Positions 4,950-54,472 of a stretch of 64,000 bases of DNA are shown piece by piece. The stretch covers positions 30,741,313 through 30,805,312 of the forward strand of contig CM046853.1 in assembly GCA_025617745.1 (NCBI GenBank). The letters run 5' to 3'. Each line of letters begins with the position of its first letter. Positions within the stretch are counted from its first letter, which is position 1. The stretch comes from Heliocidaris erythrogramma (lineage: Eukaryota > Echinodermata > Echinoidea > Camarodonta > Echinometridae). A program made the translations under genes and the position numbers. The notes under the pieces were generated by a model that ran no database searches, was not told the origin of the DNA, and saw only the letters and a program-made list of their open reading frames with translations.

Positions 4950-5084
4950 AAATTCCACGGGTTTTTGAAAGAAATTTTAGGATGGGCATTGTGGTGTGTG
5001 GGGATCAATTATGATAGGTTGTTGCAGCATGTATGCCTGTATATTTTTACATATATACGTATCAAGTGTACAAAAAATATGTTT

Positions 5085-5124
5085 CCCCCCCCCCCCCTTG
5101 GCCTCAAGGAGGGGGGGGGGGGGG
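5085..5124. repeat. C13 ... G14 palindrome
   Basis: A run of 13 C, the near-palindromic spacer TTGGCCTCAAGGA, then 14 G. The two runs can pair as a hairpin or form i-motif/G-quadruplex structures. In the second version (30094-30134) the C run is one base longer, as expected of an unstable tract. Confidence 0.85.
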
Positions 5125-5173
5125 AGGTGCTTGGAGTGATGGGAAAGTCGGTAAGAAAAAAAATTATATTTAT

Positions 5174-5240
5174 CTTGGATTCGAAAACGCGACATTCCAT
5201 ATGTGAGGCAGTGACGCTACCGCTTGAGCTATCGAGAATT
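5174..5240 (-). pseudogene. tRNA-derived relic (SINE-like)
   Basis: Read on the minus strand this has a box A-like TAGCTCAAGCGGTAG, then a GCCTCACATATGG segment where an anticodon loop would lie (CAC, valine-type), then a box B-like GTTTTCGAATCC. Spacing between the boxes is tRNA-like, but I cannot fold a clean acceptor stem and box B has an extra T. It is therefore best read as a decayed tRNA or the head of a tRNA-derived SINE. The second version is at 30184-30250. Confidence 0.5.
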
Positions 5241-5289
5241 ACCTGTTATGAAGTGTGTATTTGGTAATCATATATAAACGTCCGTATCC

Positions 5290-6823
5290 ACCAAATTTTG
5301 CGCCACCAAAATCACCATCTCACTGAATTTAAGAACGGTCAGAAGCACCCAAACTGCCCTTTATTATTAACAGATAATGAGAAAAATGATAAAAAATATA
5401 GAAGAAAGAGAAGAAAGACGTGTTTCGCAGTCATTTTCCAAATTACGCGCGTGTTCGTCATTGACGGACTCGCACGACGTCTGCGATAGTTCGAATCGTC
5501 TCAAACCACGCAGGTCAATGGCGTTTGGGCATGTAAAAAACCGTGATTTTGAAGCAAACGGGACAAATACAGGCCAAACGAATACCGTTCCGCACATCCA
5601 AGCAGAGAGCCGGACACGATGCAACGGAAGACGACCTCCGGGGCGAAGCGGGAAAAAAGCCTTTCTTCGACATAGAATCCCCTTTTTACAGCGTACGAAT
5701 CCCGTTGACTTACGTACGGTACCCCCCTCGACGCCTTACAGTATTATTATGATTGATTGATGATGATAGATAGATAGATACGCTCGCGCCCATACCCTTG
5801 GGGGGCACGACCCCTGACCCCACCACCCCTACTCGGTCGCTTCGCTCAGAAAGGTCCACTTTTTCCAATGTTGAACCCCCCCCCCCCCCCGCAAAAATCC
5901 TAGTTACTGGCCTGTATCTTCTTATCATATCAGGAAAATCACATAAAGTATGTTGACAGTATAACCTACCCATTCTTCGATTGTGCTTATAACCCCATCA
6001 AGTTCGGTTATTTTTCTCAAATGAAATCTGATCAGTCTGATCGAGGGCCGCTTTGATCGGAATTTAACAATCTATTTCTCTCTCGTGTAAGCTCATAACC
6101 TTGCAAAGAAAGGAAAGCTACCGCAGTAATAGTAATTGATTAATAGCACCACGAAACAAAAGCGCAAATATTTCTTTTCAATCCAAGGAATCTGTTTACC
6201 AGATGCTTCTGTAGAATGCAATGTTATTTTCCCCATAGCCCACCCTGATACTGCACTCTTATCTTTCCCCTTCTCAACTATACCCTTATTTGGATAATTT
6301 GAAAGAAACCTGAATAAAGTTCAGAAAAAAAATAATAAAGTTATATTACTACAAAAAAGCTAATGAGAATCATTTGCAATAAAAGTCATCGTTAACACAG
6401 TCACTATGACTTTGTGCTCTTTTATAATAACAAGGTCTTAAAAATAGACTATATTAGTCTCTGTTGTTTAATATAATTATACTGTACACGATAATAACTA
6501 CTTTCGAAAAATAAATTCAAGGGCAATTTCAAAGGCCTATTGTACTGCCAATAGAAATCAGGTCCGGATTACGTAATACGCGATTGTAATGTTCGCTCAT
6601 TTTTAAAGGTGATAGACAGGGCTATTGAAATTGCCTTCAGTTGATTTTTCGAAAAAAAGTAGTTTTTATCGTGTTTATACCACTTGGGACAAAAACAGCT
6701 ACCAAACAATTATTGCAAATGTTTGGTTTTTTTTACAATAATGTACACAAATACCCCCACAAGACAATCAAATATGTTATATCTTCCACTAGCAAGAACA
6801 GTTACATCACAAATGACTTAAAG
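5290..6823. other. Gene-free stretch
   Basis: Open frames here (for example about 127 codons from 5377) have no recognisable domain and change frame between the two versions of this region. A GATA run (5765-5780) and a C run (about 5877-5890) are present. The second version lacks about 20 bases matching roughly 6320-6340 and part of 5965-5985. Confidence 0.5.
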
Positions 6824-7723
6824 GAGAATTAACCCCTGAGTACAAATTTACTTATATTGAAAGGTGTAATATATTCCTACTTATTGGCCTAAATCATTTT
6901 CTAATAAGATATTAGAAAAGGGTATAAATAAAGATATTCCAACACCCGGTATCGTCTCCTACTCATTTACATGGGGGCTGCCATTTTCTTGCTGATTTGG
7001 ATTTGTACATGAACCATTGAGAAATGTTCCGGTCAGGAAGATATTTTGAATCCAAGACCTAAATTGATTTTCTTCATTACCTAAAATCCCATATGTGACG
7101 AAAAATATAAAGTGGGTGTTTACATGATTTATAAAAATTAAATCTTTATAATGATACTTTTAAATTGTCTGGTTTTGCTTAACAAAAATCTGTTTTCTTG
7201 GGTTTGCCAAACAGAGCAGAACATAATATATGCAGCATGCATTCTGACTTTTCAAGTCCCATTATCCGAAAGCAGGTGAATGCATAGTTTGCCGCTATAG
7301 ATGCTCAGGGAAGAAGCATCCATAAAATTTGAATTAATTTGCTCCGTCCATTGCGTCACAGTATGTAGAAAATAGATTTATATTAAGCGAATATCGATTT
7401 TCAACAGAAATATATAAGGAAATCTTCAGTTTAAAAATAAATTGACATATCTATTCTATATTTTTAATCTCAAATGGGTTTTTAATTTTGAAAAAGGCAA
7501 TTGGGCATTTGGATTAAGAAAATCTTCTTGTACACATAAAAAAATGGCAGCCCCCATGTATTGCTAGCAGACGATACATATTGCTAGCAGATGATAAATT
7601 TTGCTCAGAAAATCTTGATTCGTATCGATCTCGTATATTTTGACGCGAAGCCATATAGTCTAACAAGTAGGAATAAATAACACCTTTGAACACTATCGTC
7701 TTTATTGTTTGAGGTTAATTCTC
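6824..7723. mobile_element. 900-bp non-autonomous element with GAGAATTAACC ends
   Basis: GAGAATTAACC (6824-6834) is exactly inverted at 7713-7723 (GGTTAATTCTC), with weaker inverted similarity continuing inward (TTCCTACTTATTGG and its counterpart). A second inverted pair, ACATGGGGGCTGCCATTTT near 6970 and its complement near 7540, lies inside. There is no coding capacity. The architecture fits an old non-autonomous TIR transposon; no clear target duplication is visible. Confidence 0.5.
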
Positions 7724-7926
7724 AATTATGTACCGGAGCACAGATCTGGACCTCCCAAGATGATACCATTAAATCACTATGTTTTTATTTAAACGTAAAC
7801 TGAAAAGAAATTCCTGCTGAATAGATATAACTGTTAAGTGGCAACAAGAAAATGAATGAAAATAAAATCAAAGCAAGAGGCGTGAAAATGTGTGATTCCC
7901 CATCCTTCATCTTCCATCTATTTACC

Positions 7927-7970
7927 TCCCCCCCCCCCCCCCCCCCCCCCTCTCTCTCTCTCTCTCTCTT
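7927..7970. repeat. C run followed by (CT)n
   Basis: About 24 C followed by CT dinucleotides. Length differs in the second version (32905-32942). Confidence 0.9.
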
Positions 7971-8133
7971 TCCCCTACTTAAGACATTGCTTCTTATTGT
8001 TTACATTACAATGATTTTTATACATACTGTTGTTACAACTCTTCTATTATGTAGTGTAAGGATGGGGGGGGGTGTCATGCGGGTCTAGTGTCATTGTATT
8101 TAATTATATTACAGAGCATTTGTATAAATACAA

Positions 8134-8206
8134 TGGTTTACTGCCACTTGGTCTAATGCCAACCGGTCTAACAGCATTCGGTCTAATATCAGTTGGTCTA
8201 ATAACC
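8134..8206. repeat. Four copies of a ~15-bp GGTCTAA-containing repeat
   Basis: CTTGGTCTAATGCC, ACCGGTCTAACAGC, TTCGGTCTAATATC and GTTGGTCTAATAACC follow one another. The array replaces the left arm of the 253-bp foldback element whose remainder follows at 8209-8376. The second version (33105-33174) has lost a G in the second copy. Confidence 0.75.
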
Positions 8207-8208
8207 AA

Positions 8209-8376
8209 ATGACAAAAGGAGTTCGTCCAAGCTTTGCGATTGTTCTGAAATTACGGCGTCCGGATTGCATCCGGGTTCGAGTATAATATAGTTGATTTCG
8301 AGTAATTTGTTATATACCTGCGTGATAACCTGATGAGTGCACCATTCGTTATCATGTCTCTTTTTCGTGCCATATT
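8209..8376. mobile_element. Truncated copy of the 253-bp foldback element (unit A)
   Basis: Matches the spacer and right arm of the complete element at 12316-12568, including GGCGTCCGGxTTG and the TTTTTCGTGCCATATT end. The left arm is missing and the right arm has lost about 14 bases. The second version is at 33179-33346. Confidence 0.75.
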
Positions 8377-8434
8377 ACAATAATATTTGTAAACCGCTCA
8401 ATGATTGATCTTGTCTGATTTGTATCTCTGTCTC

Positions 8435-9626
8435 TCAGTCCGTTGGTGAGTCGATGAAAATGGGAAATCTCTCGTAGCGAAGTGCAGATTTGCAGGAATC
8501 GGTCCACCACTCTCTCCAGTTCTCCACCAAAGGCATTCTCATCTCTTCTTTTTGTTCCTCATCTCTCAAAATATGGTGAATTACATGCTTGCAAAAATTC
8601 TCCGGTTCTAAGAACGAATCCTCCTTATTGGTCGTCACTGAGCCGAATTTCTTCCACTCAAAATATCTATTATACATCTCATCATTTTTATCCAGTTTGT
8701 CCAAGTATTCGGCAAGTTTAGACACAGATGGGAAATCTTGTACACCAAGCCCAGTGTCAAGGCATTGTACCAAAACTTTTCGGTGATATAATCGCGACAT
8801 TCACTGTTTTCTAGAGCGAGATAGAACTTGTACTTCGGAAGACAGTTGTTAAGATTCCCACAAGGCTTCTCACCACATATCCCAAAACTATCGACACTGA
8901 TATGTTTTGACAGAGCTCTAACAAACTCTTTGCGACTCCATGAGACTACCTGGCAATTAGATGACACCCATGCAACCAGTTTTGTTTTGTTTTTTGCCCA
9001 GTTCCTGGTGACATTACCAACAGTGGATGGTGCATGCGGCACGTATCGCCCATATTCGGCTCCGGACATGACGGCCTTTTTGTTGGTTGCTCCTGTGCGA
9101 TACGTCATGATATAGTCATAGGACTTATTCAGGTATTTGGCGGTGGAATAACCTGTTCTGTCGTGTGTATCGGGCTCTCAAAAGTCCAGAAGATCCATTT
9201 CTGATGCTCGGATCGATACTGCATCAGCTTATCCCAGTTCCAGCTTGATTTGTAATAGAGCAATACAACATCACTTGAAGCAAGTTGGTCATAGTCCTGC
9301 CCATAATCTATCTGAACGCCACAAGATAACCCAAGACAAGAATATTTGCATTTAATCTTGTTGTCCCGAATTAATCGTTCGAAGGGCCAGCCTATAGCAT
9401 TATGCTTTCGATCAAGCCAAACATAAACACTCTTGTAGCATTTCATAAGGGGTTGAGGCACTCTCTCTCCCCCCGTTGGTGTCATTATTGCGCTTACATT
9501 ATGTCTTGCTGCTTTTACGTGGTTTGCCAATTTCGTGACTGGGCTTGCATTATATGACAATAAAAGAAAGTAAATGATAAAGCTGAAAATACATCCAAAC
9601 AACCAGAATCTCATCAAATCCCTCAT
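8435..9626 (-). pseudogene. Fucosyltransferase A (GT10), disrupted
   Basis: Same protein as the intact copy at 56870-58129 but with two lesions. A 67-bp deletion (junction 8744/8745) removes about residues 295-317, the stretch after LTLGLV that forms part of the GDP-fucose-binding motif, and shifts the frame. One C is also lost near 9140 in the GGCCGGTGG segment. The ATG (9624-9626), the N-terminal membrane segment and the terminal SPTD with its stop are preserved. The 67-bp deletion is present in both versions of this locus, so it is real, and the product would be catalytically dead even without the second lesion. The acceptor-side patch is of the HNAIGWPFER type. Confidence 0.9.
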
Positions 9627-10065
9627 CTTGTGCAGACTTCACGAGCTTCCGTAGGCTGTAGAAATATACACAACTTTCTTCGACATATCCAACGCGGCGA
9701 CACATAGACGCATATACGCGTAGAGAGGTCCTAGACATTAAGGGAGCATTGGCATCAATATGGGATATGGGGGGGGGGGTTACCTGTCTCATGAGGTGGA
9801 TCAAATTACCACGGCCACTGATGGGGGAAGGGTCATAACTGGATCGTAGCATCTTCTTTTTACGTTCCTTTCTCCCTCTCCTTTTTTTTTTTACTTCTTT
9901 GCGCCATTCGATAGGATGGGGGGGGGGGGGGGGACACGACCCGTGATCCCCACCCCCATCCACACTCATCCCAACAAGCAGAATCAATAATGACATCTGT
10001 TGCGAGAAAAAAAAACAATTGCCATTGTATTTATAAACAGCCTCAGTGGGAAGAATAAAGCATAA

Positions 10066-10313
10066 TTGAATAGGATAGTGAAACACGCCAACAGAGAAAT
10101 TCGTGTCACTGAAGAACAACTGGAAGATATTGTAGAAAGGGCAGTACTGGAAAAGTTGCAAGTGATTGTGAAAGATTCGAATCACCCTCTGCATGAGGAA
10201 GTGTTCTTTAACAGATCTGGAAGAATTACGCTGCCTGGAATAAGGACTGATAGGTTTGGAGGTCATTTCTCCCAAGTGCAGTGAAAGCATTCAACTACAT
10301 TTTCTGTAGATGA
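10066..10313 (+). pseudogene. Reverse-transcriptase C-terminal relic, non-LTR type (unit A)
   Basis: The frame reads REIRVTEEQLEDIVERAVL then KLQVIVKDSNHPLHEEVF, RSGRITLPGIRTDRF and, after a one-base loss near 10258, a tail ending FCR and stop. The layout ...HPLH...SGR.RLPGIRT.RF..SF.P.A.KAFN resembles the extreme C terminus of reverse transcriptases of some invertebrate non-LTR retrotransposons. Only this 3' end is present. It lies upstream of fucosyltransferase A on the opposite strand and recurs in units A-D, so it was duplicated with the array. Family assignment is from memory of the pattern. Confidence 0.55.
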
Positions 10314-10375
10314 AAGATCTAGTCTCTAGTGTAGTTTCATCACCTCTGAGTATTTCTTTCTACGTTCTCTTCTTT

Positions 10376-10640
10376 TCTCTCTCTCTCTCTCTTCGTCTTT
10401 GAAGTACAGGGGTGACTGTAGGTTTGGGTTAGGTTGAGTTAAGGATTTACCAATAATTTCTCATTAATTTGTATTTTTATGGAAATAACATTGGAGTAAA
10501 ATCTGAACCTATCAGTTTTCCGGAAATGGTTGTAACAATTTGACAGTTGATTGCAATACATGTAATTATGTCTGCCTTATATTACTTCTCCTCTCATTCT
10601 CTCTTTCTTTCTCTCTCTCTCTCTCTCTGACTCTCTTTCT
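10376..10640. repeat. Two (CT)n tracts
   Basis: CT-rich runs at about 10376-10392 and 10580-10640. These recur at the same place in every unit with different lengths (for example 14636-14680, 39613-39655, 54267-54307, 58853-58885). Confidence 0.85.
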
Positions 10641-11159
10641 CTTTATCTTCCACCCTACAGTGGTCATTACGCATATAATGTGTTTACATTACAGTTCAGT
10701 GTTTCTTACACAAAGTTCTAGTATATAGGTGCAATAATTTTTGTTTGTTACACAGCAATTAGGCAGATTAGGAGATGCAACATTTAATGTAACATTCAAA
10801 TCAGTATTACCGATTAAACAAGGGCAACGAAAAGCGTAGCACCCCCTCGCCGGGTACAACGTGTGTTATCACGGTTTTTGTTATTTTTTTACGGTCACAA
10901 GGTGCTATTTGACCAATCAGGATGGCTACATTATTGAATCCGCTTTATAAAACAAGTTATCTGAATTAGACTATACTATTGTATTACTAGGCAAGGAAGT
11001 TACTAATACCTAGGAATTGGATGTACAGAAAGTTTACTACTTTATGTAATGACCCATTTCATCGTTACAACTTTTCTATTATGTAGTGTAAGGAGGGAGT
11101 GTCATGCACGTCTTGTGTCATGTAAAGAATTGTATATCTACATTTCTTTAATATGATTG

Positions 11160-11434
11160 TATCTAATTATATTACAGAGCATTTGTATGTACTTTTTTCT
11201 TTTTCACAAAGGGGTCTGTAAATTCCAACAGAGCGTTTTAATAGACTTCTCCACTTTTTTTTGCTACGAATAATTTTATGATAGTAAATTTTGATATTAC
11301 AACTGTTTTTTATGTGTAATTGTAAACACTTTTTAATGTAATTTGTTTGATATTACGTAAAATAAATCTGTGTATGTCCATTTCTTAGACATTTGTGGAA
11401 AATAAACAAAATTTGAAACCTTAAAACCTTACCT
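11160..11434 (+). other. LINE-like 3' end common to all units
   Basis: A stretch ending GTAAAATAAATCTGTG, a GGAAAATAAACAAAATTTG segment and GAAACCTTaaAACCTT looks like a transcript 3' end with AATAAA-type signals followed by a short tandem tail. It probably belongs to the same retrotransposon as the relic at 10066-10313, which is in the same orientation. No gene otherwise from 10314 to 11760. Confidence 0.35.
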
Positions 11435-11550
11435 TTAAGGACCCCATTGGAAATAAGCCATTTCGGCTTTCATGGGCTATCCTGTCATGGTACCCGGTTA
11501 TGTTTGTATTGCAATATACCTGACGAATAAAATCAAATCAAATCAAATCA
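11435..11550 (+). mobile_element. 116-bp LINE/SINE tail insertion with TACCT duplication
   Basis: Present only in unit A (and A'); units B-E have an uninterrupted CCTTACCTAGAGATTG-type junction here. The insert ends GACGAATAAAATCAAATC with repeated AATCA, a typical 3' tail of a target-primed retroelement. It is flanked by TACCT on both sides (11430-11434 and 11551-11555). It is strongly 5'-truncated and has no coding capacity. Confidence 0.75.
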
Positions 11551-11670
11551 TACCTAGAGATTGCCCGAGGATATAGTCTATTTTTATTTATTAAAATTTC
11601 ACACATACCTAGATTTACCTCTACATGATGATCAAAGAATAGTACTTGAAAGAATTGTTTTGTCTGTTCT

Positions 11671-11700
11671 CCTCTCCCCCCCCCCCCCCCCCCCCCTCCT
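11671..11700. repeat. C run
   Basis: About 21 C within a pyrimidine stretch. The same site in other units carries 14-24 C, an unstable tract at a fixed position of the array unit. Confidence 0.9.
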
Positions 11701-11922
11701 CCGGAAAGAAAAACAAATAAAATTTAAGTCACACAAATACAATGTACCTCGTTAAACATACTCAAAGAAAAATCACGTGTACCGAATACTGTAAGCATAG
11801 AGTATCGCAGCCGTTCCCAGCGTGTGTTTTTTTTTGTGTCCAACCACACGTGGACGTATTTGCCTCGCCGTCACAATGTATGAAAGCTTTCCCATTTCCA
11901 ATAAACTGGTGTATTAATGTAC

Positions 11923-12011
11923 CTCGCTCTTCCGCTAATTTTCTTTCCTCTCGTTCATTTTCCAGCATTCTTTGTTTAATTTCTTGAAGAGTTGGGGGTT
12001 TCATTTTAGTT
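11923..12011 (-). other. Exon-like segment encoding a charged helix (unit A/B)
   Basis: On the minus strand a candidate acceptor (TTTATAGCAG, ending 12012) and a candidate donor (GAGCGAG|GTACATT) frame 89 bases containing an ATG at 12004 and a frame reading MKPPTLQEIKQRMLENEREE then RKLAEER. The peptide is rich in E, K and R with a heptad-like pattern. Related segments with the same borders recur at 26076-26166, 36901-36988, 51060-51150, 55654-55744 and 63622-63709, several with frame-breaking changes. I do not recognise the family. It may be a captured exon or a leader exon of a transcript; splicing it straight to the fucosyltransferase reading frame meets a stop. Confidence 0.35.
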
Positions 12012-12315
12012 CTGCTATAAACAAAAATCATATACTTAATCAAAAGTACAATATGATTAATTTAATTGCTCTTTCCCTATACATTTAAAGCTTTTATACC
12101 TATGCAAATCCCCCCTCCCAGTTTATATTTTTAATATCCAATAAATTGAAGTACATTTCCTAGGTCTTAAAAATGTCTTTTTCAGATTCAAAATCAATGA
12201 TTTCAGTGGCTTATAACAATTCTTGTACCTTATATCGATAACAAGTTTTATGAAAACAGGGTCCTGATCGACATGTAATAGGAAAACTATATTTTTCTTG
12301 GTACTACAAAATTTT

Positions 12316-12568
12316 AATATGGCACGAAAAAGAGACATGATAACGAAGCTTTTCGACCTGCACTCATCAGGTTATCACGCAAATTACTCGAAATGACAAA
12401 AGGAGTTCGTCCAAGCTTTGCGATTGTTCTGAAATTACGGCGTCCGGGTTGTGTCCGGGTTCGAGTATAATATAGTTGATTTCGTTTTTTTTTTTTTATA
12501 CCTGCGTGATAACCTGATGAGTGCAGGTCGAAAAGCTTCGTTATCATGTCTCTTTTTCGTGCCATATT
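12316..12568. mobile_element. 253-bp foldback MITE with perfect 66-bp arms (unit B)
   Basis: Positions 12316-12381 and 12503-12568 are exact reverse complements (AATATGGCACGAAAAAGAGA... / ...TCTCTTTTTCGTGCCATATT), with a 121-base spacer. Units C, D and E lack it and read straight from the flank into ACAATAATATTTGTAAACCG. It lies just downstream of the fucosyltransferase B stop. A non-autonomous DNA transposon is the best class. Confidence 0.85.
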
Positions 12569-12626
12569 ACAATAATATTTGTAAACCGCTCAATGATTGA
12601 TCTTGTCTGATTTGTATCTCTGTCTC

Positions 12627-13886
12627 TCAGTCCGTTGGTGAGTCGATGAAAATGGGAAATCTCTCGTAGCGAAGTGCAGATTTGCAAGAATCGGTCCACC
12701 ACTCTCTCCAGTTCTCCACCAAAGGCATTCTCATCTCTTCTTTTTGTTCCTCATCTCTCAAAATATGGTGAATTACATGCTTGCAAAAATTCTCCGGTTC
12801 TAAGAACGAATCCTCCTTATTGGTCGTCACTGAGCCGAATTTCTTCCACTCAAAATATCTATTATACATCTCATCATTTTTATCCAGTTTGTCCAAGTAT
12901 TCGGCAAGTTTAGACACAGATGGGAAATCTTGTACATGTATAAAGGAGTTCGGTGGAGCCATTCTGATGTAGTCTTCTTTTGGAGCTCCGTAGACAACTG
13001 GAACCAAGCCCAGTGTCAAGGCATTGTACCAAAACTTTTCGGTGATATAATCGCGACATTCGCTGTTTTCTAGAGCGAGATAGAACTTGTACTTCGGAAG
13101 ACAGTTGTTAAGATTCCCACAAGACTTCTCACCGCATTTCCCAAAACTATCGACACTGATATGTTTTGACAGAGCTCCAACGAACTCTTTGCGACTCCAT
13201 GAGACTACCTGGCAATTAGATGACACCCACGCGACCAGTTTTGTTTTGTTTTTTGCCCAGTTCTTGGTGACATTACCAACAGTGGATGGTGCATGCGGCA
13301 CGTATCGCCCATATTCGGCCCCGGACATGACGGCCTTTTTGTTGGTTGCTCCTGTACGATACGTCATGATATAGTCATAGGACTTATTCAGGTATTTGGC
13401 CGGTGGAATAACCTGTTTTGTCGTGTGTATCGGGCTCTCAAATGTCCAGAAGATCCATTTCTGATTCTCGGATCGATACTGCATCAGCTTATCCCAGTTC
13501 CAGCTTGATTTGAAATCGAGCAATACAACATCACTTGAAGCAAGTTGGTCATAGTCCTGCCCATAATCTATCTGAACGCCACAAGATAACCCAAGACAAG
13601 AATATTTGCCTTTAATCTTATTGTCCCGAATTAATAGTCCTAGGGGCCAGCTTATATCAATACGCTTTCGATCAAGCCAAACATAAACACTCTTGTAGTA
13701 TTTCATAAGGGGTTGAGGCACTCTCTCTCTCCCCGTTGGTGTCATCGTTGCGCTTACATTATGTCTTGCTGCTTTTACGTGGTTTGCCGATTTCGCGACT
13801 GGGCTTGCATTATATGATAATAAAAGAAAGTAAATGATAGAGCTGAAAATACATCCAAACAACCACAATCTCATCAAATCCCTCAT
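12627..13886 (-). CDS. Alpha-1,3-fucosyltransferase B (GT10), intact, 419 aa
   Basis: Transfers L-fucose from GDP-fucose to an N-acetylglucosamine or glucose-type acceptor on glycans in the Golgi (family function). A short cytoplasmic tail is followed by one membrane segment (about residues 7-24), a stem, and the GT10 catalytic region. This contains WIFWTFESPIHT (about 144-155), YDYIMTYRTGATNKKAV (about 170-186), LVAWVSSNC (217-225), and the donor-binding block YKFYLALENSECRDYITEKF to PPNSFIHVQDF (about 266-321). N-glycosylation sequons NVS, NKS, NVT and NKT suit a secretory protein. The single exon and 419 residues are normal for the family. The chosen ATG gives the complete type II signal anchor. 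The patch at residues 75-84 is of the RIDISWPLGL type, unlike A, C and D. Its second version (37604-38865) differs by frame-breaking C insertions. Confidence 0.93.
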   Translation of the reverse strand: MRDLMRLWLFGCIFSSIIYFLLLSYNASPVAKSANHVKAARHNVSATMTPTGRERVPQPLMKYYKSVYVWLDRKRIDISWPLGLLIRDNKIKGKYSCLGLSCGVQIDYGQDYDQLASSDVVLLDFKSSWNWDKLMQYRSENQKWIFWTFESPIHTTKQVIPPAKYLNKSYDYIMTYRTGATNKKAVMSGAEYGRYVPHAPSTVGNVTKNWAKNKTKLVAWVSSNCQVVSWSRKEFVGALSKHISVDSFGKCGEKSCGNLNNCLPKYKFYLALENSECRDYITEKFWYNALTLGLVPVVYGAPKEDYIRMAPPNSFIHVQDFPSVSKLAEYLDKLDKNDEMYNRYFEWKKFGSVTTNKEDSFLEPENFCKHVIHHILRDEEQKEEMRMPLVENWREWWTDSCKSALRYERFPIFIDSPTD

Positions 13887-14040
13887 CTTGTGCAGACTTC
13901 AGGAGCTTCCGTAGGCTTTAGAAATACACAACTTTCTTCGACATAACCAACGCGGCGACACATTCATGAGAATGATTTATACCATAATTTAGTGACGCGT
14001 ACAGAGGGCCTAGACATTAAGGGAGCACTGGCATCAATAT

Positions 14041-14200
14041 GGGGGGGGGGGGGGGTTACCTGTCTCATGAGGTGGATCAAATTATCACGGCCACTGATGG
14101 GGGAAGGGTCATAGCTGGGTCGTAGCATCTTCTTTTTACGTTCCTTTCTCCCTCTCTCTTTTTTTTACTTCTTTGCGCCATTCGATAGGAAGGGGGGAGG
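14041..14200. repeat. G runs upstream of fucosyltransferase B
   Basis: A run of about 15 G at 14041-14055 and a shorter G-rich stretch near 14190. The same two G tracts lie 150-300 bases upstream of every gene of the array (for example 9769-9778 and 9918-9932; 28679-28688 and 28832-28842), with variable length. On the coding strand they are C runs. Confidence 0.8.
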
Positions 14201-14332
14201 GTACACGACCCGTGATCCCCACCCTCATCCACACTCATGCCAACAAGCATAATAATTAATGACATCTGTTGCGAGAAAAGAAAAGCAGTTGCCATTGTAT
14301 TTGTTAACAACCTCAGTGTGAAGAATAAAGCA

Positions 14333-14552
14333 TAATTGAATAGGATAGTGAAACGTGCCAACAGAGAAATTGGTGTCACTTAAAAACAGCTGGAAGATAT
14401 TGTAGAAAGAGCAGTACTGGAAAAGTTGCAAGTGATTGTGAAACATTCAAATCACCCTCTGCATGAGGAAGGGGTCTTAAATATATCTGGAAGAAGTTTG
14501 GGAGGTCATTTCTCCCAAGTGCAGTGAAAGCATTCAACTACAGTTTCTGTAG
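14333..14552 (+). pseudogene. Reverse-transcriptase C-terminal relic (unit B)
   Basis: Same relic as at 10066-10313 but more decayed: a TAA interrupts after REIGVT, and about 30 bases encoding the LPGIRTDRF part are deleted after SGR. Confidence 0.5.
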
Positions 14553-16465: not shown

Positions 16466-16501
16466 TAAGATTTGTAAGATTTGTAAGATTTGTAAGATTT
16501 T
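16466..16501. repeat. Tandem 9-bp repeat TAAGATTTG x4
   Basis: Three exact copies and a fourth ending TTTT. Identical in the second version at 41453-41488. Confidence 0.95.
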
Positions 16502-27287: not shown

Positions 27288-28537
27288 TCAGTCCGTTGGT
27301 GAGTCGATGAAAATGGGAAATCTCTGGTAGCGAAGTGCAATTTGCAGGAATCGGTCCACCACTCTCTCCAGTTTCTCCACCAAAGGCATTCTCATCTCTT
27401 CTTTTGTTCCTCATCTCTCAAATATGGTGAATAACATGCTTGCAAAAATTCTCCGGTTCTAAGAACGAATCCTCCTTATGGTCGTCACTGAGCCGAATTT
27501 CTTCCACTCAAAGTATTTATTATACATCTCATCATTCTTATCCAGTTTGTCCAAGTATTCGCAAGTTTAGACACAGATGGGAAATCTTGTACATGTATAA
27601 AGGAGTTCGGTGGAGCCATTCTGATGTAGTCTTCTTTTGGAGCTCCGTAGACAACTGGAAACCAAGCCCAGTGTCAAGGCATTGTACCAAAACTTTTCGG
27701 TGATATAATCGCGACATTCACTGTTTTCTAGAGCGAGATAGAACTTGTACTTCGGAAGACAGTTGTTAAGATTCCCACAAGGCTTCTCACCACATATTCC
27801 AAAACTATCGACACTGATATGTTTTGACAGAGCTCCAACAAACTCTTTGCGACTCCATGAGACTACCTGCAATTAGATGACACCCATGCAACCAGTTTTG
27901 TTTTGTTTTTTGCCCAGTTCCTGGTGACATTACCAACATGGATGGTGCATGCGGCACGTATCGCCCATATTCGGCCCCGGACATGACGGCCTTTTTGTTG
28001 GTTGCTCCTGTACGATACGTCATGATATAGTCATATGACTTATTCAGGTATTTGGCCGGGGAATAACCTGTTTTGTCGTGTGTATCGGGCTCTCAAATGT
28101 CCAGAAGATCCATTTCTGATGCTCGGATCGATACTGCATCAGCTTATCCCAGTTCCAGCTTGATTTGTAATAGAGCAATACAACATCACTTGAAGCAAGT
28201 GGTCATAGTTCTGCCCATAATCTATCTGAACGCCACAAGATAACCCAGGACAAGAATATTGCTTTTAATCTTGTTGTCCCGAATTAATCGTATCGAAGGG
28301 CCAGCCTATAGGATTATGCTTTCGACAAGCCAAACATAAACACTCTTGTAGCATTTCATAAGGGTTGAGGCACTCTCTCTCCCCCCGTTGGTGTCATTAT
28401 TGCGCTTACATTATGTCTTGCTGCCTTTACGGGTTTGCCAATTTCGTGACTGGGCTTGCATTATATGATAATAAAAGAAAGTAAATGATAAAGCTGAAAA
28501 TACATCCAAACAACCAGAATCTCATCAAATCCCTCAT
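27288..28537 (-). pseudogene. Fucosyltransferase C (GT10), many single-base indels
   Basis: Full-length homolog from ATG (28537) to stop, closest to D in its diagnostic positions. The frame is broken by roughly a dozen one- or two-base indels, among them GTGCAATTTGC near 27338, CCTTATGGTCG near 27477, ATTCGCAAG near 27558, CTGCAATTAG near 27869, CAACATGGATG near 27938 and GGCCGGGGAATAA near 28059. Most are absent from the second version of this locus (52276-53528), which has other indels instead. That suggests consensus errors near a contig end and not shared mutations, so the locus may be intact in the animal. Confidence 0.85.
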
Positions 28538-29457: not shown

Positions 29458-29957
29458 NNNNNNNNNNNNNNNNNNNNNNNNNNNNNNNNNNNNNNNNNNN
29501 NNNNNNNNNNNNNNNNNNNNNNNNNNNNNNNNNNNNNNNNNNNNNNNNNNNNNNNNNNNNNNNNNNNNNNNNNNNNNNNNNNNNNNNNNNNNNNNNNNNN
29601 NNNNNNNNNNNNNNNNNNNNNNNNNNNNNNNNNNNNNNNNNNNNNNNNNNNNNNNNNNNNNNNNNNNNNNNNNNNNNNNNNNNNNNNNNNNNNNNNNNNN
29701 NNNNNNNNNNNNNNNNNNNNNNNNNNNNNNNNNNNNNNNNNNNNNNNNNNNNNNNNNNNNNNNNNNNNNNNNNNNNNNNNNNNNNNNNNNNNNNNNNNNN
29801 NNNNNNNNNNNNNNNNNNNNNNNNNNNNNNNNNNNNNNNNNNNNNNNNNNNNNNNNNNNNNNNNNNNNNNNNNNNNNNNNNNNNNNNNNNNNNNNNNNNN
29901 NNNNNNNNNNNNNNNNNNNNNNNNNNNNNNNNNNNNNNNNNNNNNNNNNNNNNNNNN
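29458..29957. other. Assembly gap of exactly 500 N
   Basis: Exactly 500 undetermined bases, the usual placeholder for a join of unknown size. Sequence on the two sides is not continuous: the left side ends in unit C, the right side restarts at the counterpart of position 4950. Confidence 0.98.
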
Positions 29958-33404: not shown

Positions 33405-34595
33405 TCAGTCCGTTGGTGAGTCGATGAAAATGGGAAATCTCTCGTAGCGAAGTGCAGATTTGCAGGAATCGGTCCACCACTCTCTCCAGTTCTCCACCAA
33501 AGGCATTCTCATCTCTTCTTTTTGTTCCTCATCTCTCAAAATATGGTGAATTACATGCTTGCAAAAATTCTCCGGTTCTAAGAACGAATCCTCCTTATTG
33601 GTCGTCACTGAGCCGAATTTCTTCCACTCAAAGTATCTATTATACATCTCATCATTTTTATCCAGTTTGTCCAAGTATTCGGCAAGTTTAGACACAGATG
33701 GGAAATCTTGTACACCAAGCCCAGTGTCAAGGCATTGTACCAAAACTTTTCGGTGATATAATCGCGACATTCACTGTTTTCTAGAGCGAGATAGAACTTG
33801 TACTTCGGAAGACAGTTGTTAAGATTCCCACAAGGCTTCTCACCACATATCCCAAAACTATCGACACTGATATGTTTTGACAGAGCTCTAACAAACTCTT
33901 TGCGACTCCATGAGACTACCTGGCAATTAGATGACACCCATGCAACCAGTTTTGTTTTGTTTTTTGCCCAGTTCCTGGTGACATTACCAACAGTGGATGG
34001 TGCATGCGGCACGTATCGCCCATATTCGGCCCCGGACATGACGGCCTTTTTGTTGGTTGCTCCTGTGCGATACGTCATGATATAGTCATAGGACTTATTC
34101 AGGTATTTGCCGGTGGAATAACCTGTTCTGTCGTGTGTATCGGGCTCTCAAAAGTCCAGAAGATCCATTTCTGATGCTCGGATCGATACTGCATCAGCTT
34201 ATCCCAGTTCCAGCTTGATTTGTAATAGAGCAATACAACATCACTTGAAGCAAGTTGGTCATAGTCCTGCCCATAATCTATCTGAACGCCACAAGATAAC
34301 CCAAGACAAGAATATTTGCATTTAATCTTGTTGTCCCGAATTAGTCGTTCGAAGGGCCAGCCTATAGCATTATGCTTTCGATCAAGCCAAACATAAACAC
34401 TCTTGTAGCATTTCATAAGGGGTTGAGGCACTCTCTCTCCCCCGTTGGTGTCATTATTGCGCTTACATTATGTCTTGCTGCCTTTACGTGGTTTGCCAAT
34501 TTCGTGACTGGGCTTGCATTATATGACAATAAAAGAAAGTAAATAATAAAGCTGAAAATACATCCAAAAAAACAGAATCTCATCAAATTGCTCAT
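33405..34595 (-). pseudogene. Fucosyltransferase A' (GT10), disrupted
   Basis: Carries the same 67-bp deletion as A (junction 33714/33715). Near 34110 it also has a one-base loss in the GGCCGGTGG segment, but it lost a G where A lost a C. A further one-base loss lies in the C run before GTTGGTGTCAT near 34440. The N terminus reads MSNLMRFCFFG in place of MRDLMRFWLFG. Confidence 0.9.
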
Positions 34596-37545: not shown

Positions 37546-37603
37546 ACAATAATATTTGTAAACCGCTCAATGATTGATCTTGTCTGATTTGTATCTCTGT
37601 CTC

Positions 37604-45191: not shown

Positions 45192-46218
45192 ATATACATG
45201 TATACTAGCACTTCGCTGCCCGAATGTGACCATCTGAACTTTGACAATCCCAGGGGGGCAGCCATTTGCCCAAAGATTAACATCTCAATGTTTTTTGCGA
45301 GCGACTTGAGCGAGCGAGCAAAAAAATTTGACCAGTTTTTCCTTCTTTCTCTTCCATTCCTTTCCTTCTTTTTAGTGTTTATTTTCCTTTCCCTTCCTTT
45401 CCTTTTTTACCCTATATTTCCTCTTCCCTCACTCTCCCCCCCCCCCCTTTTTTGTTGCCAACAGAGGTGGCGCATTTGCCGCTAGCGACGCCCGGTTGAC
45501 AAATTTATGATATTTATATCCGCATTCCTATAGATTTTGTAAATTTGTCTTGATGAATGATGAAAGAAATATTTGTGGATGAAGGATGGATTTACTTTAC
45601 ATTTTATATTCTTATGATGAATAATTTATGGGATTCTGTATTACAGTCAGATATAGAGATTTTTGTTAGTATAAGTAATTTTTTTGTAGGCAGTTGTTAG
45701 TTCATGTCTGATTTGTTTGCACGTTAGTTTTACACAAGGTGTTGCTGTGTAAATTACTAGAATATTTTTTAAAAGGTACCTCTACCATCATGTAGACCAG
45801 TGCATGTTGTGTTCGCAACACTGGCATATTTCACTTTAGGACAGTTTCCATTTCAGTTCATGACCAAAAAAGTGTTATGAAAAGCTTGACACCTTGTTAA
45901 GAAACACATTGGCCACAATTCACAAAGGAGGGTAAACCCATGGTCTAAACTATGGTTTAAAATAAGCGTAGCCTGTATTGCCATTTATGATTGGGCATGA
46001 GGCCATGTACGTTGCTTGTAATACCCTTACAGAAGTATTCATGAATTCAGGCCATGGCCTTTTCACAAAAGAAAAAAAATCTATTTCATTGAAATTCTAA
46101 TTCATTTTTTTAAAACTATCTTTTCTTTTATTACAGCACCACCAAACTGTTGTACGTGCTGATTGGATTCCCTGCCACTGTCAGCTTAGTTATGGTGTTA
46201 GACTTCCTGGTCTTGCTC

Positions 46219-46592
46219 AGTTCCAAGATACGATTGATGAGATCACTCGTCCTATCCATCTACCTGTTTGCCTGGGAATCCTGGACCCTCACAGCAGACC
46301 TCCAGAGGCGAATTCAAGCAATGGAAATGAGATGCTTCTGTAAAATCTCATATAAAGACCACATAACCGAGACGGTCCGCACCATCATCCACCAAGCAAT
46401 TGGGCCATACGAAGAACTCCTCATGACCGTGAAAAAGCGCAAACTGAAATGATATGTCATGTTTCACATTCTTCGGGTCTTGCAAAAACCATCCTGCAAG
46501 GCACAGTGAAAGGTGGAAGAAAAAGAGGAAGACAGAAGAAAAGATGGGAAGACGATATCAAAGAGTGGACCGGCCTGGACTTTTCTTGTTAG
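46219..46592 (+). pseudogene. Non-LTR RT C-terminal relic (second version)
   Basis: Counterpart of 21231-21604 with the same stop and frame change, so these lesions are genuine and predate the split of the two versions. Confidence 0.85.
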
Positions 46593-47493
46593 CTCACCTG
46601 AGCCTAAGGCTTGAGCGAGCTATTGCGATGGAAATTTGTCCGTCGTCCGTCGTGCGTTGTCCGTTAACTTTTTACATTTTCATGTTCTTGATCACATGAT
46701 CGGAATTCAACCAAACTTGGTAGGAATCATCCTTAGGGTTAGGGGACCCAAAGTTGCTACCCTGGGGGAGAGCCCCTGATTGTAAAAGCTATGTAAATTT
46801 CAAACATCTTCTCCAGAACCAGGCATAGCTCAGACTTGGTATTGTGTATGGAGATACCTCTATAGATGAAGAATGAATGTTGTTCATGAAATTTCTCTGA
46901 GTGGCCCTATAGGGGCCCTGTGGGGGTAACACACTGGAGAGGGGGGGGGGGGGGGGTGCTGCCAGGCAAAATGTACATTCTGATCTTCTTCTCCAAAACA
47001 CACGATCGGAATTCAACCAAACTTGGTAGGAATCATCCTTAGGGGTAGGGGATCCAAAATTGCTAAATTGGTACATGTGGCCCCCAGGGGGCCCAGGGGG
47101 AGGGCCCCCAAGTGTAAAAGCTATGTCAATTTCAAACATCTCTTCTCCAGAATCGGGAATAGCTCAGACTTGGTATTGTGTATGGAGATACCTCTATAGA
47201 CGAAAAATGAAAGTTCATGATTTTTTTCTGGGTGGCCCTATAGGGGGTCTGTGGGGGTAACATACTGGAGGGGGGGGGGGCTGTTGTCCGCCATTCATAA
47301 ACTTTTTACATTTTCAGCTTCTTCTCCAAAACCAATGATTGGAATTTAACCGAACTTGGTAGGAAGCTCAGACTTGGTATTGTGTATAGAGATACCTCTA
47401 TACATGAAGAATGAAAGTTGTTCATGAAATTTTTCTGGGTGGCCTTATAGGGGCCCCTGCACCAGATGTGAATTGATCCACGTCAGGTGAGCT
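46591..47493. mobile_element. AGCTCACCTGA element (second version)
   Basis: Counterpart of 21603-22502. It preserves CCAAACTTGGTAGGAATCAT in its first repeat, where the left version has a short deletion. Confidence 0.75.
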
Positions 47494-48305
47494 TCATGCC
47501 CCCAATTTTTGCTGTGACTCTTTTTATAGAGTAGAAATGGAATTTTATTATTGTGAATGGCAATTCAGTAGCAATGAATTCCTGTACATGTAGAGAAAAT
47601 GAAATTTGCCTCTTTTTTTTTTTTTTTTTTTAACATTTATCAATTGATGGCTTTTTTCCTTGTCCATCTTCCTAATACCTCAATCACACTAATAAGACCG
47701 ACACAAGACCCAGAACAAAATTACCCTTAATGGCAAAGAACTGGTCGGTTTGGTGGTGTGATGGTGGTAATAGGATGAGTGGGTGTAACTTGTGCCCCCC
47801 CCCCCTTTCCTGAATCTTTAGGAAAAGTGTTAAAGACAACTTGCATGTTGTCTTCAGCACTTGTTGCTGCCAAAAATATTATGTCCAGATATATTATTTA
47901 AAAAATAAAATGTTGATCCTTTGCCACTGATAATATCCTTCTTGAAAAATCCCTACCCTTACCAACAATACAGAGCCACATAATGGTCCGAACCAGTTAG
48001 TCTGTAATTTCTGTTGTATTGTAATTTGAATATACCCTTATTGAAACAAAAAATGAACTTTTTCCTTTAATTTGAACTTCCTTTTCTTGTGAAGGGTCAG
48101 AAAGGAGAAGGGAATAAGAGAGAGAAAATGGAGAGGTGCAAAAAAAACGGTAAAAACAAGCCATTGAGAGAAAGGAAGGAAAGGATGAAGAAACAAATCA
48201 TGAGAAGAGGATGAGGGAGAACGCAGTGATGGAGATATTGAGAGAGAGGGAGAATAGTGAAGAGTGAACACAATCCCAAAGTGAATTTTGAAATATTAGT
48301 AGGCC

Positions 48306-48620
48306 AAGTGCCGTACCCAGGATTTGTTAAAAGGGGGAGGGGGGTGGGTGTATATATCAGTATTTTGGGGGTCTTTTTACTCCAAAAAATCTCTGACAAG
48401 CCAAACAAAAAGAAAAAAAGTAACATTATTTGGGGTTACTTTCAAATTATCCAATATGTGTTAAAAAAAGTTAACAGGAATTCTAAGGCGGCGTTTTTTA
48501 ACATCAAAAAGGCGTGTGCCGACTTACAATAACACAAAAAGGGGGTGTTCGACCACCTAAAAATGCCCCTTTTGTCAAAGGGGGTGTTTGGACACCCCCC
48601 TCCCCTAGATAAGTGCATGG
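48306..48620. mobile_element. hAT-like element (second version)
   Basis: Counterpart of 23313-23625 with the same GTAGGCC flanks (48299-48305 and 48621-48627). Confidence 0.45.
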
Positions 48621-50067
48621 GTAGGCCTACCTTCTTGCATTAATTTTATTCTTCATTTCATGTATTCTGCATCTGTGTATTTATTTACTAAACCAAATTT
48701 ATAACTAAAAAACACTTGATAACTCCTTGCCTGAACCAACATCGTGATTAGATGGAAGCTTGTGAACGTGTTAGAGTAAGGATGTGTATGTAGAGAGAGA
48801 GAGAGAGAGAGAGAAAGAGGGGAGGGCGAGGTGTTTGCTGACAGAAATTGATGTCCATGCCCAGTCTAAACTGTCTTTGAAAAAGAGCATTCTGCAGCTA
48901 CCTGGTGAAAAGAATATTTATGAAGCCGAAGTGAACCACGGAGAGCAGCAATACAAATTTCACAAGTGTTGGCTATATGTAAAGAGCAAGGAGTTCTGTC
49001 ATAACTCCTTGGTCAGAGCAGGGAGGTAGAAGAGAGATCTCTCTTCCACCTCCCCAGTCAGAGCAAGAAGCTTACACTCCTTAGCCAGATGACTTGGCAA
49101 ATCAGGTGTAGGCCTATGAGGGTAGGGGGCTATGAGGGTAGGGGGCTGGATCAAGTTTCATTTTGAGAAAATTTACCACAAACATTTGGATGATTTTGGC
49201 GTAATGAAAATTTTCTCACTTTTCAGATATGACGGTAACCTGATATGACTTGGATATTATCAATAATCAAGCTTCCAGAATGTTAGGCTATAGCCCAATA
49301 TTAGAAATATTAGAAGAAGAAAAAAGAAAGAAACCCCAAACAAAAATCACTGACGTGAGGGGGGAGGGGGCCAGGGGGATGCCACACTCTTATGACAAGT
49401 ATTACATCTCCCTAATCAATTCCCCGTCCAAGGAGACAAAATAAAATCTTATGTGTTCATTGTTTTATCAGTCTTCAGTCGATCGCATGATCCTGCTGTT
49501 CTGAAGATACAAAAAAGGCTTTTCCCCACATTTCTCTCTATCCTCCGATTGTAGTATTGGAAATTTGTCTAAGCATCCAACCGCATAGGCCTATATGCCC
49601 GCCCCCGCACTATTTCCAGTACAATGTATATCTTGACGACTAGTAACCGAAATTAGTTTGGAAAATGTGAGGGATATTTTCGCTCGAGAGCGAGAAATAA
49701 ATTTATTGGACCTGCGGGCACTCGTACTCCGCGAGCGCGCGGTGCCGTTACCCGAAAATAAAACCAGGGTGGCGGGCTCTGAAACCAGCTAGCCCCTGCC
49801 TCGTACGGCAATAATTGTGAATGACGACAGGGCTGTATTTCCTCCACTCCGATGTCTCTCATTTTCTCTCCCTCCGAGCTCCAGCCCCGGCCCCTCCTTC
49901 CCTTACACAACGTCTAGTACGTCTCTGGTATAGAGCTGATCTTATGGATTGTTGTTTCGTCCATGTTTCAAAATGTGCGACCTCCCCTTCCCCTTTTCAT
50001 TTGTTTCCTCTTTCTCTTTCTTTCTTGTCGGGCAAAAACATTTGTTATTCATGTATGTAGGATTACC

Positions 50068-50259
50068 ATGCAATAATCAAAATTTGGTAATTCTCCTCAC
50101 ACACAATGTCGCGACTACCCCAGCGACCGCCGGCCAGGCCAGGCGATCGACAGGCTAGGCTAGATGCAATAATCAAAATTTGGTAATTCTCCTCACACAC
50201 GATGTCGCGACTACCCCAGCGACCGCCGGCCAGGCCAGGCGATCGACAGGCTAGGCTAG
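50068..50259. repeat. 96-bp tandem duplication (second version)
   Basis: Counterpart of 25074-25265, same two copies. Confidence 0.9.
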
Positions 50260-51059
50260 CCCCTTGCCGCCCACGGGATGAGCTCCAGCGCTCAAGTTTT
50301 CTCTCGCGCGCGATAGTATTGCCGAGTTATCAATCCTTGGTATTGCAAGCCCTGTCAGCATTACACCCCACAGCGGCAGGCCAATGTAAATAGACGTTAC
50401 GCTGTGCATTTGCCGAAAGAGGGAGGTAGGCCGACCGTCACAAGTTATAAGCGTCATGCCATACGCTTATAAAATTTCGATTTTAAATCATAAATATCTT
50501 GATAATGAAATCAGCAATTGACCTGTAAAAGTCACACGATTCCCGACTGACCTAAAGGTTTCTAATTATCATTGCAGCATGAGCTAATTCAGATTTTTTT
50601 TTTTCTGATCTCCAACAAAGTTACTTGTTACTCTTGTATGTCCGTTTCTTAGACATTGTGAAAATAAAGAAAATTTGAAACCTTGAAACCTTACCTAGAG
50701 ATTGCCCGAGATATAGTCTATTTTTATTTATTAAAATTTCACACATACCTAGATTTACCTCTACATGATGATCAAAGAATAGTACTTGAAAAGAATTGTT
50801 TTGTCTGTTCTCCTCTCACCCCCCCCCCCCCCCCTCCTCCGAAAGAAAAAAAAAATAAAATTTAAGTCACACAAATACAATGTACCCCGTTAAACATACT
50901 GAAAAAAAAAAATCACGTGTACCGAATACTGTAAGCATAGAGTATCGCAGCCATCCCCAGCGTCTGTTTGTTTTTTGTCCAACCTCAAGTGGCGTATTCG
51001 CCTCGCCGTCCCTACGTATGAAATTTTCCCATTTCCTATAAAGTGGTGTATTAATATAC

Positions 51060-51150
51060 CTCGCTCTTCCGCTAATTTTCCATCCTCTCGTTCATTTTCC
51101 AGCATTCTTTTTTTTAAATTTCTTGAAGAGTTGGGGGTTTCATTTTAGTT
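51060..51150 (-). other. Exon-like segment (unit C', frame broken)
   Basis: Counterpart of 26076-26166 with the same stop-creating change. Confidence 0.3.
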
Positions 51151-51174
51151 CTGCTACAAAACTAAAATCATATA

Positions 51175-51813
51175 TTCAGAAAAAGGTTTGCGGTACAACC
51201 ATGTGAGTTGGAATAACTCCACGTTCCGGTCAGAATGCTCTGGCCGTCGTCAGGAGAATGAGAAGAGCGAAAAAATCAGCAGAATTTATATATGAAGCAG
51301 CAATTTACTTAATAAAATGGATGCAATCAAATAACATAGAAAGAAATAGTAACAGTAACATCAAAGTACCTACATAATTTCTTTCCCCAACAGGATGCCA
51401 TGTTTCTCTCCACAGATTACCTATGGTCCCAATCCCCCTTTTGTGTCCAGCTTATCCAGATGGTTAATCGATTTCTTAGGCCTATTGTTCACTTGCTTTC
51501 ATTGTTTTCTTTTCAACGCAGGATTCGTTTGATGTCACTTATCCTTTCAATGCAGGTACCTTGATGTTATTTATCCTTTCAATGTAGGTACTTTGATGTT
51601 ACTGTTACTATTTCTTTCTATGTTATTTGATTGCATCCATTTTATTAAGTAAATTGCTGCTTCATATATAAATTCTGCTGATTTTTTCGCTCTTCTCATT
51701 CTCCTGACGACGGCCAGAGCATTCTGACCGGAACGTGGAGTTATTCCCAACTCACATGGTTGTACCGCAAACCTTTTTCTGAATAACAACTTCACCATGC
51801 AAACCTTCAAATC
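51175..51813. mobile_element. Foldback element with 201-bp arms (unit C')
   Basis: Counterpart of 26191-26826, flanked by CTAAAATCATATA at 51162-51174 and 51814-51826. Confidence 0.8.
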
Positions 51814-52275
51814 CTAAAATCATATACTTATTCAAAAGTCCAATAAGGTTAATTAACTGCTCTTTCCCTATATATTTAAAGCTTTTATAACAATGCAAAT
51901 CCCCCTCCCAGTTTATATACATGTATTTTTTTAATATCCAATAAATTGAAATAAATCACCATGATCTTTCCAAAGGACTCTTATTTTTCACAGGTAAAAA
52001 ATAAATGCTCATATGTCTCTTCATTTTATAACAAAAGGAGCACATATTATTTTCTCTAGTACATATAAGCTTATATAACATTTTAACCTGAAACTTACAT
52101 TTAAAGTACATTTCCTAGGTCTTAAAAATGTCTTTTTCAGATTCAAAATCAATGATTTCAGTGCCTTATACTGATAACAAGTTTTATGAAACAGGGTCCT
52201 GATCGACATGTAATAGGACAATAATATTTGTAAACCGCTCAATGATTGAACTTGTCTGAATTGTACCTCTGTCTC

Positions 52276-53528
52276 TCAGTCCGTTGGTGAGTCGATGAAA
52301 ATGGGAAATCTCTGGTAGCGAAGTGCAGATTTGCAGGAATCGGTCCACCACTCTCTCCAGTTCTCCACCAAAGGCATTCTCATCTCTTCTTTTTGTTCCT
52401 CATCTCTCAAAATATGGTGAATTACATGCTTGCAAAAATTCTCCGGTTCTAAGAACGAATCCTCCTTATTGGTCGTCACTGAGCCGAATTTCTTCCACTC
52501 AAAGTATTTATTATACATCTCATCATTCTTATCCAGTTTGTCCAAGTATTCGGCAAGTTTAGACACAGATGGAAATCTTGTACATGTATAAAGGAGTTCG
52601 GTGGAGCCATTCTGATGTAGTCTTCTTTTGGAGCTCCGTAGACAACTGGAACCAGCCAGTGTCAAGGCATTGTACCAAAACTTTTCGGTGATATAATCGC
52701 GACATTCACTGTTTTCTAGAGCGAGATAGAACTTGTACTTCGGAAGACAGTTGTTAAGATTCCCACAAGGCTTCTCACCACATATTCCAAAACTATCAGT
52801 GTCGATATGTTTTGACAGAGCTCCAACTAAACTCTTTGCGACTCCATGAGACTACCTGGCAATTAGATGACACCCATGCAACCAGTTTTGTTTTGTTTTT
52901 TGCCCAGTTCCTGGTGACATTACCAACAGTGGATGGTGCATGCGGCACGTATCGCCATATTCGGCCCCGGACATGACGGCCTTTTTGTTGGTTGCTCCTG
53001 TACGATACGTCATGATATAGTCATATGACTTTTTCAGGTATTTGGCGGTGAATAACCTGTTTTGTCGTGTGTATCGGGCTCTCAAATGTCCAGAAGATCC
53101 ATTTTCTGAGCTCGGATCGATACTGCATCAGCTTATCCCAGTTCCAGCTTGATTTGTAATAGAGCAAATACAAACATCACTTGAAGCAAGTTGGTCATAG
53201 TCTGCCATAATCTATCTGAAAGCCACAAGATAACCCAGGACAAGAATATTTGCTTTTAATCTTGTTGTCCCGAATTAATCGTTCGAAGGGCCAGCCTATA
53301 GGATTATGCTTTCGATCAAGCCAAACATAAACACTCTTGTAGGCATTTCATAAGGGGTTGAGGCACTCTCTCTCCCCCCGTTGGTGTCATTATTGCGCTT
53401 ACATTATGTCTTGCTGCCTTTACGTGGTTTGCCAATTTCGTGACTGGGCTTGCATTATATGATAATAAAAGAAAGTAATGATAAAGCTGAAAATACATCA
53501 AACAACCAGAATCTCATCAAATCCCTCT
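52276..53528 (-). pseudogene. Fucosyltransferase C' (GT10), many single-base indels
   Basis: Second version of gene C. Private lesions include GATGGAAATC near 52570, AACCAGCCAGTG near 52652, an added TA in CCAACTAAACTC near 52825, ATCGCCATATT near 52952, GGCGGTGAATAA near 53045 and GCAAATACAAACATC near 53164. The ATG itself is corrupted (CCCTCTCTTGTG in place of CCCTCATCTTGTG). The last 118 residues read normally. See gene C for why consensus error is likely. Confidence 0.85.
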
Positions 53529-53971
53529 CTTGTGCAGACTTCAGGAGCTTCCGTAGGCTGTAGAATTATACACATCTTTCTTCGACATATCCAACGCGGC
53601 GACACATAGGACGCATATACGCGTAGAGAGGGCCTAGACATTAAGGAGCATTGGCATCAATATGGGATAGGGGGGGGGGGGGTGTTACCTGTCTCATTAC
53701 GTGGATCAAATTATCACGGCCACTGATGGGGGAAGGGTCATAGCTGGATCGTAGCATCTTCTTTTTACGTTCCTTTCTCCCTCTCTTTTTTTTTTTTTAC
53801 TTCTTTGCGCCATTCGATAGGATTTGGGGGGGGGGGGGGCACGACCCGTGATCCCCACCCTCATCCACACTCATGCCAACAAGCATAATAATTAATGACA
53901 TCTGTTGCGAGAAAAGAAAAGCAGTTGCCATTGTATTTGTTAACAACCTCAGTGTGAAGAATAAAGCATAA

Positions 53972-54187
53972 TTGAATAGGATAGTGAAACGTGCCAACAG
54001 AGAAATTGGTGTCACTTAAAACAGCTGGAAGATATTGTAGAAGAGCAGTACTGGAAAAGTTGCAAGTGATTGTGAAACATTCAAATCACCCTCTGCATGA
54101 GGAAGGGGTCTTAAATATATCTGGAAGAAGTTTGGGAGGTCATTTCTCCCAAGTGCAGTGAAAGCATTCAACTACAGTTTCTGTAGA
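53972..54187 (+). pseudogene. Reverse-transcriptase C-terminal relic (unit C')
   Basis: Same decayed form as units B and C. Confidence 0.45.
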
Positions 54188-54472
54188 TTAAAGATCTAGT
54201 CTCTAGTGTAGTTCATCACCTCTGAGTACTTCTTTCTACTTTCTCTTCTTTTCTCCCCCCCCCCCCCCTCTCTCTCTCTCTCTCTCGCTCTCTCACTCTC
54301 TCACTCTCTTTTGGGTTAGGTTGCGTTAAGGATTTACCGCTAATTTCTCATTAATTGGTATTTTTATTGAAATAACATGGGAGTAAAATCTGAACCTATC
54401 AGTTTTCAGGAAATGGTTGTAACAATTTGACAGTTGATTATAATACATGTAATTATGTATGCATTATATTAC

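Follow-up and report, generated by a model that had tools for sequence, protein, structure and literature searches.

A probable false duplication across a 500-N contig join in a fucosyltransferase array of Heliocidaris erythrogramma

Does the fucosyltransferase (GT10) array on CM046853.1 of the echinoid Heliocidaris erythrogramma (assembly GCA_025617745.1) contain a real 24.5-kb tandem duplication, or has a single locus been placed there twice? The question is raised by a stretch of 64,000 nucleotides (positions 30,741,313 to 30,805,312 of the forward strand; hereafter the window, in whose coordinates the locus is described), in which a single run of N, exactly 500 long, separates a left from a right contig and in which the suffix of the former recurs as the prefix of the latter. 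As reported here, the apparent duplication is very probably an assembly artefact, namely two overlapping contigs that were not merged. The arrangement consists of three parts:

4950–29457, plus strand: left-contig suffix, first version of the overlapped segment (98.63% identity to 29958–54450, base-exact ends)
29458–29957, no strand: scaffold gap of 500 N (the two other gaps seen in the genome are also exactly 500 N)
29958–54450, plus strand: right-contig prefix, second version of the segment (BLASTN, base-exact ends)

Geometry of the overlap and its parallels in the assembly

The two versions form one collinear BLASTN alignment of 24,617 columns, in which 105 mismatches and 143 gap openings occur. 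At its start, the right contig is identical for 60 bases to the sequence from 4950 on, and the last 60 bases of the left contig match the sequence ending at 54450. The 24.5-kb suffix/prefix overlap across the join, as given in a preliminary description made from the letters alone, is thereby confirmed in its coordinates. Extension of the flanks by 100 kb on each side revealed no further gap and left the limits of the alignment unchanged. The coincidence of the overlap edges with the contig ends, which the same description had used as an argument, is exact to the base but discriminates poorly, because any tandem duplication with its junction in the gap forces each contig end to match inside the other contig. 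The N run is the only possible place for junction sequence between the two copies.

The duplicated pair thus lies on the same scaffold with the 500 N exactly at its junction, as is characteristic of false duplications, and the contig ends dovetail end to start, as in the homotype, contig-boundary type. The legend to Extended Data Fig. 5 of Rhie et al. 2021 (PMC8081667) describes the homotype false duplication as "overlapping sequences at contig boundaries"; going by this legend, the window is alike in its dovetailing contig ends, its tandem copies with a gap between them and its noisy consensus, and differs in that some of the differences look allelic. Ko et al. 2022 (PMC9516828), in the passages dealing with false duplications, name a gap separating the members of a duplicated pair on the same scaffold as one of the main characteristics and state that families of close paralogues are inflated. 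With the heterotype false duplication of these passages the window shares the common scaffold, the gap between the pair and the inflated family of close paralogues, the difference being a mismatch rate that is low in parts.

The reading as a false duplication, proposed in the preliminary description as either an unmerged overlap or a retained haplotype, remains the best one, mainly because two further end-to-start overlaps were found at 500-N gaps and because the error has been described in the literature. For this search, the initial 1 kb of the right contig was compared with the genome, which comprises 26 contigs with a total of 1.064 Gb, 40 of 1357 candidates being scored. This 1 kb has at least 48 genomic matches, the part from about base 206 onwards accounting for most of them and bases 1–75 for two shorter ones; among the matches listed, at least 34 distinct loci lie outside the window (local pair counted once). 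Same-strand pairs 13–190 kb apart, of which there were four (on C16, C1, C11 and C10), were compared for near-identity. Three of them (C16, C1 and C11) are near-identical over the stretch, and a 500-N gap is found at the junction in both pairs examined there (C16 and C1). The C10 pair, with 96.8% over 1.8 kb of the 3-kb stretch, was rejected as an overlap; a further pair on C5, 1 Mb apart, is not near-identical (89.9% over 1.1 kb).

On C16 (region examined 16478100–16524658), the left suffix 16487184–16500297 equals the right prefix 16500798–16513952, which amounts to a 13.1-kb end-to-start overlap across 500 N at 16500298–16500797. The two versions are 99.3% identical over 8064 columns and 97.6% over 4941, with about 189 bp unaligned in between. 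The two 1-kb bins around the unaligned patch hold 87 of the 141 mismatches, and the indels include nine of 4 bp and two of 36 bp. This overlap is likely the same kind of false duplication as that in the window. On C1 (region 44354000–44393900), the 500-N gap is located at 44373217–44373716 and the left tip recurs at 44390201–44391905 with 98.5% identity, showing 11 gaps against 5 mismatches in 1.7 kb. The start of the right contig, predicted from the offset near 44355016, matches from 44355037 on (97.7%, then 99.3%), within a short-tandem-repeat stretch where weaker off-register matches occur as well. With its extent checked from both ends, the C1 overlap is again end to start and about 18.2 kb long. 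The C11 pair (3220300–3223300 and 3271300–3274300, about 51 kb apart), a possible further case, is 99.6% identical over 2.93 kb. N runs are present in 3 of the 42 loci examined, i.e. the window's own, C16 and C1, and all three gaps lie at end-to-start overlaps. The overlap lengths are 13.1 kb (C16), about 18.2 kb (C1) and 24.5 kb (window), the homotype criterion being an overlap of about read length.

Fucosyltransferase copies in the window

Eight GT10 copies, a family encoded here in one open frame, are found in the window, all on the minus strand. In the following, L and R denote copies in the left and right contig, respectively, F1 to F3 the loci of the pairs L1/R1 to L3/R3 and F4 that of R4:

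8435–9626, minus strand: GT10 L1, pseudogene as assembled, 1-bp and 67-bp deletions in common with R1
33405–34595, minus strand: GT10 R1, collinear with L1, both shared deletions and one private 1-bp deletion
12627–13886, minus strand: GT10 L2, intact frame of 419 amino acids
37604–38865, minus strand: GT10 R2, collinear with L2, two private 1-bp insertions in G runs
27288–28537, minus strand: GT10 L3, close to the tip of the left contig, 16 indels relative to the majority of the eight copies, 15 of them private
52276–53527, minus strand: GT10 R3, collinear with L3, 11 indels relative to the majority, one site in common with L3
56870–58129, minus strand: GT10 R4, beyond the duplicated part of the right contig, intact 419 amino acids, 4.6-kb tandem neighbour of R3
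60760–62023, minus strand: GT10 R5, 1-bp deletion and 5-bp insertion relative to the majority, longest frame 330 amino acids

The L2 protein carries a Glyco_transf_10 domain (PF00852) with 191.6 bits against a Pfam cut-off of 23.9, and the best solved relative of the R4 protein is FUT9 (PDB code 8d0o, E 5.7e-31). The window proteins accordingly match the GT10 family, which has no bearing on the duplication itself. Since L1 and R1 share the 1-bp and the 67-bp deletion, they look like one pseudogene. With the three collinear pairs merged and R4 and R5 standing single, five loci are left, and the statement that the overlap raises the fucosyltransferase count from five to eight holds for the window. 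Intact frames are found in two assembled copies (L2 and R4), while F1 is a pseudogene in both versions. As to consensus quality, both copies of F3 are noisy, largely at different places, and F2 is clean on the left and bears the two 1-bp insertions on the right. F3 and F4 are 4.6-kb tandem copies within one contig (50635–60309). Just outside the window, at 64197–65456 in window coordinates, there is a sixth fucosyltransferase locus, whose 419-residue frame is intact. To the left of the overlap, at 3170–4221, a Tc1/mariner-like transposase is encoded in two frames (HTH_Tnp_Tc3_2, DDE_3).

With respect to the course of events, the end of one contig and the start of another would cover the same 24.5 kb of one locus; the assembler would have left them unmerged, and the scaffolder would then have joined them by a fixed spacer of 500 N. 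As to why the contigs broke, we infer that the left one probably stopped in the F3 unit owing to its near-identical 4.6-kb neighbour F4; the right one begins in repetitive DNA. Fixed 500-bp N spacers are mentioned in the available text of PMC8926247 for one assembly made with 3D-DNA; that 3D-DNA was the scaffolder here as well is a guess.

Origin of the two versions

A MAFFT alignment of the two versions contains 135 mismatches and 133 indels, mismatches thus making up about half of all difference events. The indels are short (1 bp in 105 of the 133, the longest 21 bp), and 47 of them fall in runs of at least four. Of the 105 one-base indels, 61 are found in runs no longer than three; the longer runs hold more of them than their number would lead one to expect, yet only a minority overall. 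The earlier statement that the versions differ mostly in homopolymer length is contradicted by these counts. The differences are unevenly distributed: one stretch of about 1.7 kb is identical, the 9.8-kb spacer shows 13 mismatches and 36 indels, and the F1 block has 25 mismatches in 2.7 kb. In F2, seven substitutions separate L from R, four of which are synonymous and one of which matches the state of R5. Away from other differences, 46 of the 135 mismatches stand isolated (23 transitions and 23 transversions). One-base indels are dense towards the tip of the left contig, with 15.2 per kb in its final 2.5 kb compared to 2.8 and 3.3 per kb before, and judged by this density the tip looks like thinly supported sequence.

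The pattern of these differences bears on whether alleles or one sequence assembled twice underlie the artefact, and the chances are about even that it is of the heterotype, i.e. that the copies are two haplotypes of one locus, both retained. The seven F2 substitutions look allelic, and the isolated mismatches as well as the 4-bp and 36-bp indels of the C16 overlap would point in the same direction. Contrary to this, the mismatch rate is very low in the spacer and in the identical stretch, the isolated mismatches with their equal numbers of transitions and transversions show no clear mutation spectrum, and many differences are clustered noise, as in the two mismatch-rich bins on C16. A homotype artefact, in which one sequence was assembled twice at a contig boundary and the versions differ by consensus error, is a serious candidate, if not quite an even one. 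It agrees with the contig-boundary dovetail and the 13–25-kb overlaps, as in the legend of PMC8081667, with the noisy left tips in the window and at C1:44.37, which fit the same legend, and with the frame-breaking indels of L3 and R3, which are largely different. Less easily reconciled with consensus error are the F2 substitutions and the mismatch-rich F1 block. Both kinds of artefact may hold together.

That part of the array underwent a true and recent 24.5-kb tandem duplication, with its junction inside the gap, is considered very unlikely. The locus does expand in tandem, as is evident from its paralogues in one orientation and from the 4.6-kb copies F3 and F4 in one contig, and assemblers can break at real duplications. 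A real and very recent event, which would have raised the copy number in the window from five to eight at a single stroke and left its breakpoint inside the gap, is nevertheless improbable. It requires a junction that falls into the gap here and a like coincidence on C16 and C1. A comparison of the 40 kb left of 4950 with the 40 kb right of 54450 gave one match only, 70 bp at 83%, which means that no good substrate for unequal crossing-over was found at the edges, and this cause was rejected. Furthermore, false duplications are common, comprising 4–16% of the sequence in three older assemblies according to the relevant passages of PMC9516828.

Several points weigh against the interpretation as an artefact. 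Both the geometry and the low mismatch rate would also result from a real tandem duplication that arose very recently and interrupted the assembly where its copies join, and the overlaps on C16 and C1 were met by following repeat copies, which yields no estimate of the share of gaps with overlaps. Within the F3 unit, L3 is as close to R4 (97.48%, 29 mismatches, 42 gaps) as to R3 (97.33%, 30 mismatches, 61 gaps), and in a three-way alignment L3 is slightly nearer to R4 (46 mismatches, 40 indels) than to R3 (54 and 56). L3 is nonetheless paired with R3, because leftward of 25639 the collinear L3–R3 alignment continues while that of L3 and R4 ends, and because near the left tip L3 and R3 jointly differ from R4 by a block of 12 substitutions and by about 20 bp in length. 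Counted in favour of an artefact are the few mismatches of the spacer, the dense one-base indels of the left tip and a drop in noise between R3 and R4: 24 one-base indels occur in 3.8 kb of the overlap, and in the 1.25 kb following 54450, with 7.9 expected, there are none. This drop is a post hoc test on one-base indels only. Longer R3–R4 indels number 8 inside the overlap and 4 beyond it (one probably an alignment-end effect), and R3 also has a quiet stretch at 51–52 kb.

The ratio of indels to mismatches is 0.36–2.77 in five L–R blocks compared to 0.12–0.17 in five R–R paralogue comparisons and 0.21–0.22 in two paralogue comparisons including L copies; that of R3 and R4, within one contig, is also high (1.12), because R3 is noisy. 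As proof of falsity this ratio was rejected, since the indels per kb are alike (3.3–5.2 in L–R outside F3, 2.2–10.6 in the paralogue comparisons) and a high ratio therefore reflects low divergence plus background noise.

Implications for gene-family counts

The duplication is thus probably an ordinary assembly error, not biology. In an annotation, three fucosyltransferase loci of the window would be counted twice. Two more such overlaps in a small, non-random sample indicate that expansions of gene families should be verified when they are drawn from this assembly. Two sea-cucumber genome papers (PMC10213396 and PMC13228809) report, in the parts consulted, fucosyltransferase families that are expanded or species-specific, and the latter cautions that artefacts may be present among the expanded families it describes; for comparisons with these families the present locus serves as a caution only.

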